Shown: piece after piece, positions 1,066 through 10,380 of the stretch
How the letters are laid out: each line of letters opens with the position of its first letter
Position numbering within the stretch: the first letter of the stretch is position 1
Source: Georgenia sp. EYE_87
GTDB taxonomy: Bacteria; Actinomycetota; Actinomycetes; Actinomycetales; Actinomycetaceae
Direction: 5' to 3'
Length of the DNA stretch: 64,000 bases
Assembly: GCF_023148685.1 (NCBI RefSeq)
Contig: NZ_JAHXNL010000001.1
Coordinates: 124,001-188,000 of the forward strand
The notes under the pieces: generated by a model
The model's database searches: none
What the model was told of the DNA's origin: nothing
The model's input: only the letters and a program-made list of their open reading frames with translations
Position numbers and translations under genes: made by a program

Positions 1066-2541
1066 ATGACCACCACTACGCCCACGCAGCCGACGTCCCC
1101 CCAGGTTGCCGTCAACGACATCGGTTCTGAGGAAGACTTCCTCGCCGCGATTGACGCGACCATCAAGTACTTCAACGACGGGGACATCGTCGAGGGCACC
1201 ATCGTCAAGGTCGACCGGGACGAGGTACTCCTCGACATCGGTTACAAGACCGAGGGCGTCATCCTCTCCCGCGAGCTGTCCATCAAGCACGACGTGGACC
1301 CGGACGAGGTCGTCTCCGTCGGGGACAAGATCGAGGCGCTCGTCCTCCAGAAGGAGGACAAGGAGGGCCGGCTGCTCCTGTCGAAGAAGCGCGCCCAGTA
1401 CGAGCGCGCCTGGAGCACGATCGAGAAGATCAAGGAGGAGGACGGCGTCGTCACCGGCACCGTCATCGAGGTCGTCAAGGGCGGCCTGATCCTCGACATC
1501 GGCCTGCGCGGCTTCCTCCCGGCCTCCCTCGTCGAGATGCGCCGCGTCCGCGACCTCCAGCCCTACGTGGGCAAGGAGCTCGAGGCGAAGATCATCGAGC
1601 TGGACAAGAACCGCAACAACGTGGTGCTCTCCCGTCGCGCCTGGCTCGAGCAGACGCAGTCCGAGGTGCGCTCGCACTTCCTGCAGACCCTGCAGAAGGG
1701 CCAGGTCCGCCCCGGTGTGGTCTCCTCCATCGTCAACTTCGGCGCCTTCGTCGACCTCGGTGGTGTGGACGGTCTCGTGCACGTCTCCGAGCTGTCCTGG
1801 AAGCACATCGACCACCCGAACGAGATCGTCGAGGTCGGCCAGGAGGTCACCGTCGAGGTTCTCGACGTCGACATGGACCGCGAGCGGGTCTCCCTGTCGC
1901 TCAAGGCGACGCAGGAGGACCCGTGGCAGGCCTTCGCCCGCACGCACGCCATCGGCCAGGTCGTGCCCGGCAAGGTCACCAAGCTCGTCCCGTTCGGCGC
2001 GTTCGTGCGCGTCGAGGACGGCATCGAGGGCCTCGTCCACATCTCCGAGCTGGCGCAGCGCCACGTCGAGGTGCCGGAGCAGGTCGCCAAGGTCGGTGAC
2101 GACGTCTTCGTCAAGGTCATCGACATCGACCTCGACCGCCGTCGCATCTCGCTGTCCCTGAAGCAGGCCAACGAGGGCGTCGACCCGACCAGCGACGACT
2201 TCGACCCGTCGATGTACGGCATGGCCGCCGAGTACGACGAGCAGGGCAACTACAAGTACCCCGAGGGCTTCGACCCGGAGACGAACGAGTGGCTCGAGGG
2301 TTACGAGGCCCAGCGCGAGGCGTGGGAGAACGAGTACGCCCAGGCGCAGGCTCGCTGGGAGGCCCATAAGAAGCAGGTCGCGGCCGCTCAGGAGGCTGAC
2401 ACCGAGGCCGTCGAGACCGGGACGCCGGGTGCCGGCGCCGCCGGCCCGACCTCCTACAGCTCGGCCCCGGCCGAGGCGGCGGGCACCCTGGCGTCCGACG
2501 AGGCCCTGGCCGCCCTGCGCGAGAAGCTCACCGGTCACTGA
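1066..2541 (+). CDS. rpsA: 30S ribosomal protein S1
   Basis: The 491-residue protein carries four S1 RNA-binding domains at about residues 38-105, 123-188, 209-277 and 294-363. The last two have the classic pattern G-V-V-S-S-I-x-x-F-G-A-F-V-D and G-L-V-H-x-S-E-L. The C-terminal tail of about 125 residues is acidic and Ala/Glu/Gln-rich, as in actinobacterial S1. S1 binds mRNA at the 30S subunit and helps initiation. The ATG at 1066 is followed by the usual short Thr-rich start. A 19-bp hairpin lies directly downstream. The rpsA-coaE-uvrB order is the standard actinobacterial one. Confidence 0.97.
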   Translation: MTTTTPTQPTSPQVAVNDIGSEEDFLAAIDATIKYFNDGDIVEGTIVKVDRDEVLLDIGYKTEGVILSRELSIKHDVDPDEVVSVGDKIEALVLQKEDKEGRLLLSKKRAQYERAWSTIEKIKEEDGVVTGTVIEVVKGGLILDIGLRGFLPASLVEMRRVRDLQPYVGKELEAKIIELDKNRNNVVLSRRAWLEQTQSEVRSHFLQTLQKGQVRPGVVSSIVNFGAFVDLGGVDGLVHVSELSWKHIDHPNEIVEVGQEVTVEVLDVDMDRERVSLSLKATQEDPWQAFARTHAIGQVVPGKVTKLVPFGAFVRVEDGIEGLVHISELAQRHVEVPEQVAKVGDDVFVKVIDIDLDRRRISLSLKQANEGVDPTSDDFDPSMYGMAAEYDEQGNYKYPEGFDPETNEWLEGYEAQREAWENEYAQAQARWEAHKKQVAAAQEADTEAVETGTPGAGAAGPTSYSSAPAEAAGTLASDEALAALREKLTGH

Positions 2542-3256: not shown

Positions 3257-3352
3257 ATGAGCCAGCCCGACGGGTCGCCGGCCCACTTCCTCGGCGGCGG
3301 GGACGTGCCCGCGCTGCCCGTCCCGCTGCTCGGTCGGACGGGGTCCGGCTGA
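3257..3352 (+). CDS. 31-residue leader ORF coupled to coaE
   Basis: A small frame starts [11 protein letters not shown] at an ATG placed 7 nt after TAGGGT and ends in a TGA that shares its A with the coaE ATG (TGATG, 3350-3354). The coaE ATG has no clear Shine-Dalgarno of its own. This suggests that ribosomes enter on the leaderless mini-ORF and reinitiate at coaE. The peptide is Gly/Pro-rich and has no recognised domain. It could be a regulatory or merely enabling leader. Existence is inferred from context only. Confidence 0.5.
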
Positions 3353-4014
3353 TGCTCACCGTCGGCCTCACCGGGGGGATCGGCTCGGGAAAGTCGACCG
3401 CGTCGGCCGAGCTGGCCCGGCTCGGCGCCGTCGTCATCGACGCGGACCGGATCGCGCGCGCCGTCGTCGAGCCGGGCACGCCGGGCCTCGCCGCGGTGGT
3501 GGACGAGTTCGGCGACGGTGTCCTGGCGCCCGACGGCTCCCTGGACCGTGCCGCGCTCGCCGCGCGCGTGTTCGGCGACCCGGCGGCGCTGGCGCGGCTC
3601 GGTGCCATCACCCACCCGCTCGTCGCCGAGGAGAGCCGCCGCCTGCAGGCTGCCGCGCCCGGCGACGCCGTCGTGGTCCACGACGTCCCGCTCATCGTGG
3701 AGAACGGCCTGGCCGACCGGTACGACCTCGTGGTGGTCGTCGGCGCGGACGAGGACACCCGGGTCCGACGGCTGACGGCGCACCGCGGCATGTCGGAGGA
3801 GGACGCCCGCGCCAGGATCCGGTCCCAGGCCGACGACGCCGCCCGTCGCGCCGTCGCGGACGTCTGGCTCGACAATTCTGGGACCCCCGAGGAGCTCCGC
3901 GACGCCGTCGGTCGGCTGTGGCGGGAGCGGCTGGTGCCCGAGCGCGACCGGCGCGCGCGCACCGCCGGGTCGGGCCCCCGTCGTCGCAGCCGCGGAGGTC
4001 GACCGAGCCGGTAG
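3352..4014 (+). CDS. coaE: Dephospho-CoA kinase
   Basis: The 220-residue protein begins [21 protein letters not shown], with the P-loop GGIGSGKS at about residues 7-14. It continues with D-A-D ([10 protein letters not shown]), HPLV, and the lid [30 protein letters not shown], all typical of CoaE. CoaE phosphorylates the 3' hydroxyl of dephospho-CoA, the last step of CoA synthesis. The C-terminus ends in an Arg/Gly-rich tail. The start codon overlaps the stop of a 31-codon leader ORF. The gene is convergent with the ftsH-like gene, with only 14 bp between the stops. Confidence 0.95.
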
Positions 4015-4028
4015 GGCGGCATGCGTCC

Positions 4029-6031
4029 TCAGGAGTCCCGGTGCCCGGGAGAGCCCGCGGGAGCACCCACGAGGTGCGGGTCGGCCGGCCGGCGCTCGAT
4101 GCCGGCGGCGGCGTAGGCGTCGGCCTCGTCGAGGGTCTCGTGCTCCATCAGGGCGGCGACGATGGCCTCGTGCCGGTCGCGGTTCTCGCGGAGGAGACGA
4201 CGCGCCTCCGCGTAGCAGTCGTCGACCAGGGCGCGGACCTCGGCGTCGACGGCCTCGAGGAGAGCCTCCGAGGCGCCGTTCTGGCGGGCGTCGCCGTCGC
4301 TCGGGTAGACCTGGACCGGTCCGATCTTCTCCGACATGCCCCACCGGCCCACCATCTGGCGGGCGATGGCGGTGACGGTCTGCAGGTCGGACTCGGCGCC
4401 GGTGGTGATGACGCCGAAGACCTCCTGCTCGGCGGCCATGCCGCCGAGGGCGCCGATGATGCGGCCGCGCAGGTAGTCGACGTCGTAGCCGTACCGGTCG
4501 GTCTCGGGGGTGGACAGGGTCACGCCCAGGGCGCGGCCGCGGGGGATTTCGAGATCTTCCGGACGGGGTCGGCGCCGGGGCGGAGCATGCCGAGGAGGGC
4601 GTGACCGGCCTCGTGGTAGGCGGTGCGCAGGCGTTCCTCCTCGGGCATGACGACGGCGCGCTCGGAGCCCAGCTGGACCTTCTCGAGGGCGTCCGCGAAG
4701 TCCTTGGCGAAGATCTGGTCCTGGCCCCGCTTGGCGGCGAGCAGCGCGGCCTCGTTGGCCAGGTTCGCGAGGTCCGCACCGGTCATGCCGGGGGTGGACC
4801 GCGCCGCGGCGGCGAGGTCGACGTCGGCCGCGAGCGGCTTGCCCCGGGTGTGCACCGCGAGGATCTGCTCCCGGCCGGCCTGGTCGGGCGGGGAGACGGT
4901 GATCTTGCGGTCGAAGCGGCCCGGCCGGGTCAGGGCGTCGTCCAGGACGTCCGCGCGGTTGGTCGCCGCGAGGACGACGACGCCCTCCGTGCCGTCGAAG
5001 CCGTCCATCTCCGTGAGGATCTGGTTGAGGGTCTGCTCGCGCTCGTCGTTGCCGCCCACCGAGCGGGCGCCGGAGCGGGAGCGGCCGATGGTGTCGATCT
5101 CGTCGATGAAGACGATGGCCGGAGCCACCTTGCGGGCCTCGGCGAACAGGTCGCGCACCCGCTGGGCGCCGACGCCGACGATCATCTCGATGAACTCGGA
5201 CGCGGAGGCGGAGAAGAAGGGCACCTCGGCCTCGCCCGCGGTCGCCCGGGCGAGGAGGGTCTTTCCGGTGCCCGGGCCGCCCTCGAGGAGAACGCCCTTC
5301 GGGACCTTGGCGCCGAGCCGGGTGTACTTCTCGGGGTGCTTCAGGAAGTCCACGATCTCGGCTACCTCGGCCTCGACCTCGTCGATGCCCGCCACGTCGT
5401 CAAAGTTGACCCGAACCTTCTCCGGGTCCACCGGCTTGGCCCTCTTCTGGCTCATCATGCCGCCGAGCATCCCGCCGCCCGCCCTGCGGGCCCGGCGGAA
5501 GAGCCAGACGTAGAACCCCACGAGAAGTGCGAGCGGGAGCAGCGAGATCAGGAGGTTCGGCAGGATCCCGCGCTCCTGCGTGATCGGGGTGGCCCGGACG
5601 ACGGCGTCGCTCGTCTCGAGCTCGGCGAGCAGGTCGTCCTGGGCGAAGGTGGGCCGTTCGGTGACGAACTGGGTGTACGTGCCGCCGTCCCCGGCCGGGG
5701 CCGGGGAGGCACCCTCGGGCAGCTCCGCCGGCTCGGCCAGCGTGCCCTCGATGCTCTGGCCGCGGGAGAAGACCTCCTCGACGTTGCCCTCCTCCACCTG
5801 CTGCCGGAACTCGGTGTACGAGATCGTGGCGACCTGGGAGCTGGCGAGGTCCTGGACCGTGGTCAGGCCGAAGAGCACCAGCCAGCCCATGAGGAGCCAG
5901 GTGACGATCCGGCCCCACCTCGGCGGCTCCGGGGCGCCGCCCTGCGGCGGCACACCCTCCGTGCGCCAGGGCTGGCCTGTCGGCGCCTGCGTCGGCTGCT
6001 CGGCGCGTCGGGCGTCGCGGGAGTCGGGCAC
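4029..6031 (-). pseudogene. FtsH-like AAA+ zinc metalloprotease split by a one-base frame change
   Basis: Reading frame one (GTG 6031 with GGAGG upstream, to 4520; 503 aa) has two membrane segments (about 41-60 and 157-178), Walker A GGPGTGKT (251-258), Walker B IVFIDEID, arginine fingers and the protease motif HEAGH (473-477). It then runs into KSPAAAPWA-stop. Frame two (4029-4523) continues with family sequence TLSTPETDRYGYD, the third zinc ligand in TTGAESDLQ, and the C-terminus. A -1 shift at the CCCCC run (4541-4545) restores a normal 667-residue FtsH of expected length. The pore loop reads EMIVG rather than EMFVG. It could be a decayed gene, a sequencing error or programmed frameshifting. 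It is probably not the housekeeping FtsH, which usually sits near tilS/folE. Confidence 0.85.
4541..4545 (-). other. C5 run at the frame change inside the ftsH-like gene
   Basis: On the minus strand the codons are TCG AAA TCC CCC GCG. Slipping back one base on CCC within the five-C run gives ...P-R-G-R-A-L-G..., the conserved FtsH continuation, with no change in total length. This is where the two frames join. Confidence 0.7.
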
Positions 6032-6866: not shown

Positions 6867-8963
6867 ATGCGTCCCGTGACCGACCTGCAGCGCACCGTCG
6901 CCCCGTTCGAGGTGGTCTCCGACTACACGCCGTCGGGCGACCAGCCGACGGCGATCGCCGAGCTCACCGAGCGCCTCAGGGCCGGCGAGAAGGACATCGT
7001 CCTCCTCGGCGCCACCGGCACCGGAAAGTCGGCCACGACCGCGTGGCTCATCGAGCAGGTCCAGCGACCCACCCTGGTGATGGCGCCGAACAAGACGCTC
7101 GCCGCCCAGCTGGCCACCGAGTTCCGGGAGCTGCTGCCCAACAACGCCGTCGAGTACTTCGTCTCGTACTACGACTACTACCAGCCCGAGGCGTACGTGC
7201 CGCAGACGGACACGTACATCGAGAAGGACTCCTCGATCAACGACGAGGTCGAGCGGCTCCGGCACAGCGCCACCAACTCGCTGCTGACACGGCGCGACGT
7301 CATCGTGGTCGCGTCGGTGTCCTGCATCTACGGCCTCGGCACCCCGCAGGAGTACGTCGACCGCATGGTCCAGCTCAAGGTGGGCGACACGGTCGAGCGC
7401 GACGACCTGCTGCGCCAGTTCGTGATGATGCAGTACGTGCGCAACGACATGGCGTTCACCCGCGGCACCTTCCGGGTGCGCGGAGACACCATCGAGATCA
7501 TCCCCGTCTACGAGGAGCTCGCCATCCGCATCGAGCTGTTCGGCGACGAGATCGACGGCCTGAGCACCCTGCACCCGCTCACCGGCGAGGTCGTGCGCTC
7601 GGAGGAGGCGGTCCACCTCTTCCCCGCCACCCACTACGTCGCCGGACCTGAGCGGATGGAACGGGCGATCGCCGGCATCGAGGCCGAGCTCGCCGAGCGT
7701 CTGGAGGAGCTCGAGCGGCAGAACAAGCTGCTCGAGGCCCAGCGGCTGCGCATGCGCACCACCTACGACATCGAGATGATGCGCCAGATCGGCACCTGCT
7801 CGGGCATCGAGAACTACTCCCGGCACATCGACGGGCGCGCCGCCGGGACGGCGCCGAACACCCTCCTCGACTACTTCCCCGAGGACTTCCTGCTCGTCAT
7901 CGACGAGTCGCACGTGACCGTGCCGCAGATCGGTGCCATGTACGAGGGCGACATGTCCCGCAAGCGCACGCTGGTGGACTTCGGCTTCCGCCTGCCGTCG
8001 GCGATGGACAACCGGCCGCTGCGCTGGGAGGAGTTCCTCGAGCGCATCGGCCAGACCGTGTACCTCTCCGCCACCCCCGGGCCCTACGAGCTCAGCCAGT
8101 CCGACGGCGTCGTCGAGCAGATCATCCGCCCCACCGGACTGGTCGACCCCGAGGTGGTGGTCAAGCCGACCAAGGGCCAGATCGACGACCTCCTCGGCGA
8201 GATCCGCGAGCGGGTCGACAAGGACGAGCGGGTGCTCGTGACCACCTTGACCAAGAAGATGGCCGAGGACCTCACCGAGTACCTCCTCGAGCGCGGCGTC
8301 CAGGTGCGCTACCTGCACTCCGACGTCGACACCCTCCGCCGCGTCGAGCTGCTGCGGGAGCTCCGGCTCGGGCAGTTCGACGTCCTGGTCGGCATCAACC
8401 TCCTCCGCGAGGGCCTCGACCTGCCGGAGGTCTCCCTCGTCGCCATCCTGGACGCCGACAAGGAGGGCTTCCTGCGCTCGTCGACGTCCCTCATCCAGAC
8501 CATCGGCCGTGCCGCCCGCAACGTCTCCGGCCAGGTGCACATGTACGCCGACCGGATCACCGACTCCATGGCGCACGCCATCGAGGAGACGACCCGCCGC
8601 CGCGAGAAGCAGGTGGCGTACAACGAGGCCAACGGGATCGAGCCGACGGCGCTGCGCAAGCGGATCGCCGACGTCACCGACATGCTGGCGCGCGAGGACC
8701 TCGACACGGCCGAGCTCCTCGAGGGCGGCTACCGCGGCGCCGGCAAGGGGCCCGGCGGGAAGGACCGCCGCAAGGCGGGGGAGTCGGTCCGCGAGAAGCT
8801 GGCCGGGGCCGCGGCGAGCGACCTCGCCGAGCTCATCCAGGAGCTGTCCGCGCAGATGCACGCGGCGGCGGAGGAGCTCCAGTTCGAGCTCGCCGCCCGC
8901 CTGCGGGACGAGATCGCGGACCTGAAGAAGGAGCTGCGGCAGATGACGGCCGCCAACGCCTGA
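6867..8963 (+). CDS. uvrB: Excinuclease ABC subunit B
   Basis: At 698 residues it matches UvrB in length. It has Walker A GATGTGKS near residue 48, the DNA-gripping beta-hairpin ([21 protein letters not shown]), the helicase motif [11 protein letters not shown], motif [12 protein letters not shown], and a C-terminal UVR motif ([19 protein letters not shown]) that contacts UvrC. UvrB verifies DNA damage and loads UvrC in nucleotide excision repair. TACGGT (6855-6860) lies exactly 6 nt before the ATG, so the mRNA is probably leaderless. uvrA and uvrC are also in this window but about 22-28 kb away. Confidence 0.98.
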
Positions 8964-8965
8964 CC

Positions 8966-8989
8966 GCCCGCCGTGCCCGTGCGGCGGGC
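8966..8989 (+). terminator. GC hairpin after uvrB
   Basis: GCCCGCCG (8966-8973) pairs with CGGCGGGC (8982-8989) around an 8-nt loop, 2 nt after the uvrB stop. There is no T-run. Confidence 0.55.
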
Positions 8990-9117
8990 CCGTACCGCGG
9001 CGCTCGTTCCGCGGCACCGGCCCACGGGATCGGGCCCGACATGTCCGGGTCTGTGACGTCGGTCGTCGCCGGCCGCGACGGTCGCGCTCGGGTTTGGCGT
9101 GACGTATCGTTGCCGCT

Positions 9118-9290
9118 GCGGAGGGGAGTATTCCCCGAACAGTGATGCCGTCATCACGGTGGGCGACGTCGTCCGCTCGGTGTCACTGGCCCGGACCACG
9201 ACGGTCGTCCCAGCCTCGGCAGCATCGGGGCCGGGGACAGCCCGGACCAGGCGGAAGAGACCTCCGGTACCCGTCCCTACGTACCGGAGG
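9118..9290 (+). ncRNA. yybP-ykoY (Mn2+) riboswitch controlling terC
   Basis: The 5' strand GGAGGGGAGTA (9120-9130) and the 3' strand GAAGAGACCTCC (9254-9265) match the conserved P1 ends of the yybP-ykoY aptamer (GGGGAGUA ... AAGACC). P1 pairs GGAGG (9120-9124) with CCTCC (9261-9265). An internal arm, CAGTGA ... TCACTG, encloses GCCGTCATCACGG, like the conserved GUCGUCA element. The expression platform is visible. CCTCCGGTAC (9261-9270) can instead pair perfectly with GTACCGGAGG (9281-9290), hiding the terC Shine-Dalgarno. Metal-stabilised P1 would free it, giving a translational ON switch. A -10 box TATCGT (9105-9110) puts the start near 9117. terC/alx genes are known targets of this class. 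This fills most of the 331-bp gap. Confidence 0.85.
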
Positions 9291-9294
9291 CACT

Positions 9295-10380
9295 GTGGAA
9301 GTCCACGCCCTTGGTTGGATCGCGCTCGCTGCGATCATCGTCGTCATGATCGTGGTCGACATCGTCGGCCACGTCCGGAACCCGCACGCGCCCTCCATGA
9401 AGGAGGCGGCCTGGTGGTCGGTGGCCTACGTGGCCATGGCCATCATCTTCGGCTTCATCGTCTGGGGCGTCTACGGCACCCAGTACGGCACGGAGTACTT
9501 CGCCGGGTACGTCACGGAGAAATCGCTCTCCGTCGACAACCTGTTCGTCTTCGTCATCATCATCGCGGCCTTCAAGATCCCCCGGAAGTACCAGCAGGAG
9601 GTCCTGCTGGCCGGCATCATCATCGCGATCGTCCTGCGCGGCGTCTTCATCGCCCTCGGCGTGGCCGTGATCGAGAACTTCTCCTGGGTGTTCTACCTCT
9701 TCGGCGCGTTCCTCATCTACACGGCCATCGCGCAGGCGCGTCAGGGTGTCGAGGACCCCGACGAGCACGAGGAGTACCACGAGAACGGGTTCGTCCGCCT
9801 CGTCCGGCGCTTCGTGCCGGTGACCCCGGGCTTCGTCGGCGGCAAGCTGGTCCACCGCCACCACGGCAGGACGATGATCACGCCGATGCTGCTCGCCATC
9901 ATCGCGATCGGCAGCGCGGACATCCTCTTCGCCGTCGACTCCATCCCCGCCATCTTCGGCCTCACCAAGGAGCCGTACCTCGTCTTCGCGGCGAACGCCT
10001 TCTCGCTCCTCGGTCTGCGCCAGCTCTACTTCCTGATCGACGGCCTGCTCGACAAGCTCGTCTACCTCCACTACGGCCTCGCGGCGATCCTCGGCTTCAT
10101 CGGGGTCAAGCTGGTCATCCACGCCCTGCACGAGAACGAGCTCTCGTTCATCAACGGCGGTGAGCACTGGACCGCGATCCCCGAGCCGTCGATCGTGGTG
10201 TCCCTGCTCTGGATCGTGGGCGTGCTCGTCATCACCGTCGTGGCCAGCCTGCGCAAGAACAAGAAGGACGCGCGCATCGCTGCCGCCGAGGCGGCGCTGC
10301 TCCACGCCGGCGAGCGGGAGGACGAGCGCCGTCCGACCATCCCGCCGGGCGAGCCCGCGAAGCGCAGCTCCGACGACTGA
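9295..10380 (+). CDS. TerC/Alx-family membrane protein (Mn2+ export type)
   Basis: The preferred start is GTG 9295, giving 361 aa, because it follows GGAGG (9286-9290) by a few bases and lies after the riboswitch. An upstream in-frame extension to 9142 would translate the riboswitch itself. The protein has about eight hydrophobic segments. It holds the two family motifs with conserved aspartates, VDNLFVFVIIIAAFKIP and FAVDSIPAIFGLTKEP. TerC/Alx proteins act in metal homeostasis, chiefly Mn2+ export, and some help metallate secreted enzymes. The Mn2+ riboswitch upstream supports a manganese role. The C-terminal 40 residues are charged and cytoplasmic. Confidence 0.92.
   Translation: MEVHALGWIALAAIIVVMIVVDIVGHVRNPHAPSMKEAAWWSVAYVAMAIIFGFIVWGVYGTQYGTEYFAGYVTEKSLSVDNLFVFVIIIAAFKIPRKYQQEVLLAGIIIAIVLRGVFIALGVAVIENFSWVFYLFGAFLIYTAIAQARQGVEDPDEHEEYHENGFVRLVRRFVPVTPGFVGGKLVHRHHGRTMITPMLLAIIAIGSADILFAVDSIPAIFGLTKEPYLVFAANAFSLLGLRQLYFLIDGLLDKLVYLHYGLAAILGFIGVKLVIHALHENELSFINGGEHWTAIPEPSIVVSLLWIVGVLVITVVASLRKNKKDARIAAAEAALLHAGEREDERRPTIPPGEPAKRSSDD

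Follow-up and report, generated by a model that had tools for sequence, protein, structure and literature searches.

Introduction

The yybP-ykoY riboswitch class, its response to Mn2+ and the role of TerC as a Mn exporter are already known, as described in PMC9603457 and PMC13274385. In E. coli, Mn2+ elicits a response from reporters of both alx and mntP, and alx is also sensitive to alkaline pH (PMC9603457); alx is described as a TerC homologue (PMC13274385). The nucleotides of the Mn2+ site, A41/A48, are given in PMC6754395 and PMC9190785. For the Actinobacteria, the leader of C. glutamicum cg2157 (terC) was annotated as yybP-ykoY in 2013 on the basis of an Rfam prediction of 49.13 bits (PMC3890552). 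A survey from 2013, whose sampling included Corynebacteriaceae and Mycobacteriaceae, reports the class in over 75% of the taxonomic groups covered (PMC3766115). Our full-text literature search, with most subscription papers outside its coverage, returned no title on a Mn riboswitch in Actinobacteria among the matches listed.

The locus described here lies in a stretch of 64,000 nucleotides from Georgenia sp. EYE_87 (contig NZ_JAHXNL010000001.1, positions 124,001 to 188,000), which is referred to as the window; coordinates are window positions unless another locus is named. A first-pass annotation, made from the letters of the sequence, had read the region ahead of terC as a Mn2+ (yybP-ykoY) riboswitch that hides and releases the ribosome site. 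The sequence observation behind that annotation was confirmed. With a probability of roughly 0.88, the terC leader belongs to the yybP-ykoY class of Mn2+ riboswitches, in a form that lacks helix P2 and resembles alx, and acts as a translational ON switch. This leader is a clean and readily testable candidate for a translational Mn2+ switch in Actinobacteria, a group in which the literature search listed little beyond Corynebacterium annotations.

Layout of the terC leader

The leader fills the gap between uvrB (6867-8963) and terC, which begins with GTG and occupies 9295-10380 of the plus strand. The terC product matches PF03741 (E 5.8e-52) and has a Georgenia protein as its nearest named relative, at 82% identity; membership in the TerC family suggests that it would serve as a Mn exporter in Georgenia sp. 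EYE_87. Elsewhere in the window, an ftsH-like gene on the minus strand (3300-4700) loses its frame near 4520-4560, shortly after the HEAGH motif. The remainder reads on in another frame, which reflects either a real break or an assembly error.

The predicted yybP-ykoY-type Mn2+ aptamer spans 9120-9265 of the plus strand, with GCCGTCATCACGG at 9147-9159 and GGAAGAGACCTCC ending at 9265. Helix P1.1 is formed by GGAGG (9120-9124), whose letters are identical to those of the ribosome site, and by CCTCC (9261-9265). The 5' part of the internal loop L1, GGAGTA (9125-9130), is followed by the P1.2 strand TTCC (9131-9134), which pairs with GGAA (9253-9256). A linker of five nucleotides, CCGAA (9135-9139), then stands at the expected place of P2, which is absent. 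Helix P3.1 consists of 11 pairs between CAGTGATGCCG (9140-9150) and CGGTGTCACTG (9178-9188), and is found in the minimum-energy fold as well as by covariation. The 7-nt bulge L3, TCATCAC (9151-9157), separates P3.1 from the P3.2 hairpin (9158-9177), which is also present in the minimum-energy fold. The P4 arm (9189-9252) has a GCC/GGC closure and a variable interior, and the 3' part of L1, GAGA (9257-9260), leads into the 3' strand of P1.1. All letters that the first-pass annotation had named for the P1 ends and the internal loop are present, and both L1 and L3 match the features of the class.

Comparative support for the fold

Single-sequence folding provides weak proof of this structure. The fold of 9112-9300 was mildly better than that of its shuffles (z -1.92, 7/200), and the case is therefore carried by conservation. 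The motif pair GGGGAGTA and CGTCA..AC was found upstream of terC in 95 of 103 terC loci, a set that includes the window itself (L075) and near-identical pairs. It is missing in the remaining eight (L045, L068-L072, L099 and L101), among which L069-L072 come from records titled as other phyla. The tandem second terC genes in L008, L013, L014, L089 and L094 are also without it. Because the 95 leaders were picked by the letters GGGGAGTA...CGTCA, conservation of those letters was tested only on the set found by a covariance model, R1. This model was built only from 40 actinobacterial-type terC leaders, one of which (L035) sits on a contig filed under a proteobacterium. After de-duplication, 110 leaders were available, 68 of them chosen by letters and 42 taken from R1 loci. 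The contig carrying L035 is filed as Stenotrophomonas maltophilia, yet its terC and leader are of actinobacterial type, and it is probably contamination.

Pairing was assessed in two alignments. The first, A1, is blind to structure and holds 40 of the 68 letter-chosen leaders; the 28 that it omits are mostly from Corynebacterium and include all six with a longer linker. The second, A2, was fitted to R1 and is biased towards it. Its 48 sequences are 46 of the 58 R1 loci, the E. coli test region L172 and the window, the other 12 loci having been omitted by choice. In A1, 88.5% of cells are paired, whereas shuffles reach 75.7% and slid versions no more than 54.1%, and two-sided changes occur in 24 of 30 pairs (0/500 shuffles). 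Five covarying helices, P1.1, P1.2, P3.1, P3.2 and P4, are supported by this alignment. For P1.1, 98.5% of cells are paired and three of five pairs show two-sided changes. Two-sided changes were also seen in three of the four P1.2 pairs, where terC leaders carry TTCC/GGAA, CCCC/GGGG, CTCC/GGAG, CTTC/GAAG and ATCC/GGAT, and in 8 of the 11 P3.1 pairs. All seven P3.2 pairs vary in this way (78.4% of cells paired), as do all three closing pairs of P4 (73.1% of cells paired in A1 and 95.1% in the model-fitted A2). Placing the P3.1 register by pair maximisation was rejected and excluded from the counts, because the 3' end came out in the wrong place in several leaders from Corynebacterium; the pair counts rest on the structure-blind A1.

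In A2, where alignment to the model favors agreement, 94.5% of cells are paired and the loops of the Mn site are nearly invariant. Columns of L1 are identical in 45-48 of the 48 model-aligned sequences: 47-48 for each column of GGAGTA, which is also identical in E. coli alx, and 45, 48, 48 and 48 for the G, A, G and A of the 3' part. In L3, the T is found in 47/48, the C and the A each in 48/48 and the last C in 47/48. By its position, the A of TCA in L3 (9153) would correspond to the Mn2+-sensing A41/A48. Together with the PF03741 match of terC, the comparative evidence bears out the assignment to the Mn2+ yybP-ykoY class and the identity of the gene.

Probable promoter and start of the RNA

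A -10-like box, TATCGT (9105-9110, plus strand), lies nine bases before P1. The first-pass annotation had placed such a box about 12 nt upstream; the box itself is there, but the distance is shorter. A consensus scan gave neither a sigma-70-type nor a full promoter match. Among the 110 de-duplicated leaders, 84 have TANNNT at -24 to -16 from GGGGAGTA; an equally wide control window upstream contains it in 2. This conserved position supports the earlier proposal that the RNA starts adjoining the aptamer, and a transcription start at about 9117-9118 is predicted. In C. glutamicum, the terC start maps at 2,043,151 and the Rfam leader start is given as 2,043,157 (PMC3890552).

A proposed switch between P1 and the ribosome-site hairpin

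The strand CCTCC (9261-9265) is both the 3' strand of P1.1 and part of the 5' arm of a hairpin that hides the ribosome site. This hairpin, formed by CCTCCGGTAC (9261-9270) and GTACCGGAGG (9281-9290), is a perfect helix of 10 pairs. The terC Shine-Dalgarno sequence GGAGG occupies 9286-9290, 4 nt ahead of the GTG. The double role of CCTCC had been pointed out in the first-pass annotation and is present in the sequence as described. Pairing of CCTCC with GGAGG at 9120-9124 and pairing with the arm at 9281-9290 are mutually exclusive, so that P1 is a covarying switch helix that excludes the expression platform, as in other members of the class.

With 7 as the minimum stem score, the hairpin between the P1 3' strand and the ribosome site was found in 90 of 110 leaders and missing in the other 20; among 2200 shuffles, 4.1% reached this score. 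In ligand-free minimum-energy folds, 96 of 110 leaders had the switch strand paired downstream (counted when at least four of its five bases were so paired). It was paired to the P1 5' strand in 2 leaders and to neither partner in 12. The best fold thus left it unpaired downstream in 14 leaders. Forcing P1 cost a median of 8.7 kcal/mol across the 110 leaders and 12.3 kcal/mol in the window, but the energy model omits L1-L3 docking and the size of the gap therefore means little. As P1 is disfavored without ligand, metal binding would have to pay for it, which is expected for an ON switch. The claim that the competing helices can be read from the sequence is supported by the hairpin in 90 of 110 leaders and by the covariation of P1.1.

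The proposed mechanism is as follows. At low Mn2+, CCTCC (9261-9265) would be held in the 10-bp hairpin with the ribosome site and terC would be left untranslated. As Mn2+ rises, L1 and L3 would dock around the metal and stabilize P1. P1 would then reclaim CCTCC by means of GGAGG at the 5' end of the RNA, which duplicates the ribosome site. This would release the ribosome site, and TerC, the presumed Mn exporter, would be made. The homology, the helices, the competition between strands, the gene context and the place of the promoter are shown by the comparisons; we infer metal binding, as well as the direction and the size of this response.

A Mn2+ aptamer could also act through transcription attenuation or Rho rather than through hiding of the ribosome site. 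Some bacterial Mn2+ riboswitches use terminators (PMC6754395), and T-runs follow the hairpin in some Corynebacterium leaders. In the window, however, no T-run follows the hairpin and a scan of 8960-9330 gave no terminator-like site, which makes control of translation the better reading. The hairpin arm is also the ribosome site itself, 4 nt before the GTG. Furthermore, the arm tracks the P1 3' strand: GAA-type arms occur in 9 of 17 leaders with CCTTC as compared to 1 of 86 with CCTCC (seven of the 110 have other P1 3' strands), a contrast that is biased upward because the arm was chosen as the best complement. Attenuation or Rho control is therefore unlikely here, and translational control by the ribosome-site hairpin is preferred.

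Rfam RF00080 and the link to E. coli alx

The first-pass annotation had proposed a search with Rfam RF00080, with the lack of a covariance-model hit to count as refutation. The search was run and gave no covariance-model match in the window. No Rfam family reached its cut-off anywhere in the window, and RF00080 (Rfam 15) had no match at E <= 10 on the 291 bases of 9040-9330. The genome of Georgenia sp. EYE_87 contained no RF00080 match over the cut-off and one match of 8.4 bits elsewhere, and no Rfam family reached its cut-off at the corresponding loci of 15 relatives. Of 296 genomes from the taxonomic class, none (0) had an RF00080 match over the cut-off; at E <= 1, some match was seen in 36 of them. 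Among 14 control genomes, 9 had a match at E <= 10, including C. glutamicum, and 2 had one over the cut-off.

The same model also fails on proven members of the class. Nothing was found over the RF00080 cut-off in the E. coli K-12 mntP and alx test regions (L171 2462-2558 and L172 3377-3499): mntP scores 41.6 bits against a cut-off of 45, and the alx leader has no match at E <= 10. Because these Mn2+-responsive leaders are missed, the negative result is not decisive; RF00080 was rejected as an arbiter, and the lack of a covariance-model match is a poor refutation criterion. The printed RF00080 consensus marks no P1 pairs and shows a 3-pair hairpin at the position of P2.

The window RNA was instead linked to a proven member by R1. 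This model matched the whole of the E. coli alx leader with 53.3 bits (E 9.8e-12 in 78 kb); aside from the window's own aptamer, the next-best match in that 78 kb had E 0.042. A conserved ribosome-site hairpin or protein-binding site with no metal aptamer would be in keeping with the missing RF00080 match. This explanation is extremely improbable, however, since R1 matches alx and since the features outside the hairpin include five covarying helices and the L1 and L3 loops, which hardly vary.

The spacing from GGAGTA to L3 is 20 nt both in the window and in alx, too short for P2 in either, and the form found in the window is therefore alx-like. In 104 of the 110 leaders this spacing is 18-23 nt. 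The other six (five from Corynebacterium and one from an Actinomycetales MAG) have 28-44 nt, which leaves room for a P2 hairpin. A P2 hairpin and a four-way junction were not found in the window, where the 5-nt linker takes their place. The window RNA, as read from its sequence, is a predicted three-way junction without helix P2, unlike the textbook four-way junction. Two observations lead us to regard P2 as accessory: alx leaves no space for this helix, and a three-way junction is mentioned for pneumococcal mgtA in a review (PMC9495176). For the same reasons, loss of P2 was rejected as a novelty.

Distribution and gene context

At E <= 0.001, R1 matched 179 of 296 genomes of the taxonomic class and, with the strict filters used, gave no match in the other 117. 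A draw from the phylum gave matches in 38 of 198 genomes, 24 of them labelled outside the class. The best 30 loci from the taxonomic class were examined for the gene that follows, and 29 of them encode TerC downstream on the same strand. In the 30th (L174, genome G258) the motif precedes and partly overlaps an ORF that resembles a P-type ATPase; this ORF is up to 1586 aa long, carries the P-type motif FDKTGT and has a long extension at its N-terminus. Among 28 loci newly fetched in the phylum draw, some from class genomes, 16 had TerC and 8 had ORFs bearing DKTGT, the P-type ATPase signature; two of these eight were checked with Pfam and both were E1-E2_ATPase. The rest were one GDT1 antiporter, one Na/Ca exchanger, one M50 protease and one contig end. 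The motif is thus located ahead of genes of Mn-exporter type, mostly TerC or P-type ATPases, as in the class. A further R1 match, of 68.3 bits, lies in the genome of Georgenia sp. EYE_87 itself, immediately upstream of a second terC.

Several individual loci were noted. The leader of the second terC paralogue (L173, G000:C7:3300-5300, aptamer from about 459) is of the same kind and forms a hairpin, CCTCCGGTC/GACCGGAGG, upstream of the start codon. R1 matches also precede a gene of the Na/Ca-exchanger family (L154, aptamer 1501-1586) and a GDT1 divalent-cation antiporter gene (L170, aptamer 1501-1604, minus strand). In L167 (aptamer 1501-1585) the match lies ahead of a gene for a CBS-domain membrane protease of family M50 and is accompanied by a CCTTCGGC/GCCGAAGG hairpin. 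To our knowledge, an M50/CBS protease is an unusual gene for the yybP-ykoY class.

The leader might instead sense mainly alkaline pH or another divalent metal, with the Mn2+ response being secondary. The response of alx to alkaline pH (PMC9603457) is in line with this, as is the pneumococcal mgtA aptamer, which according to the review PMC9495176 binds Ca2+ more tightly than Mn2+. The conserved letters of the Mn-site loops and the prevalence of Mn-exporter types among the downstream genes argue against it, and make it unlikely as compared to a Mn2+ sensor.

A routine database search would overlook this regulator, given RF00080 in 0 of 296 class genomes as compared to R1 in 179 of 296, and many genes of Mn exporters would gain an annotation from a replacement model. 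The odds are about even that these leaders form a large P2-less, alx-type Mn2+ branch across much of Actinobacteria. Such a branch would be invisible to RF00080, would free the ribosome site by means of a copy of it at the 5' end of the RNA and would have a regulon beyond exporters (e.g. the M50/CBS protease of L167); its affinity or pH dependence may differ from those of P2-bearing aptamers.

Comparison with known systems

The window RNA is an ordinary, well-supported member of a known riboswitch class. Its P2-less form is not new, but it is common in Actinobacteria; that the standard model, RF00080, misses this branch is the useful addition. The closest system is the E. coli alx leader, which shares P1.1, L1, P1.2, P3.1, the 7-nt L3, P3.2 and P4 with the window, as well as a TerC-family gene downstream. 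It differs in most helix letters, in its longer and different expression platform and in its lower G+C.

The C. glutamicum cg2157 leader resembles that of the window in its class, its terC gene and a start mapped at the aptamer (PMC3890552), a comparison made by annotation only. Other Corynebacterium leaders differ from the window in their helix sequences, and a minority of them have room for P2. The P2-bearing members (E. coli mntP, L. lactis yoaB and X. oryzae) share L1 GGGGAGTA and AGACC with the window, along with an L3 that contains the Mn-sensing A and the use of P1 as the switch helix. By analogy, the switch proposed for the window would also resemble them in its ON response, as described in PMC6754395, PMC9190785 and PMC9603457. 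These members have P2 and a four-way junction, which are missing in the window, and those of X. oryzae and L. lactis act by transcription antitermination, unlike the translational control proposed for the terC leader of Georgenia sp. EYE_87.
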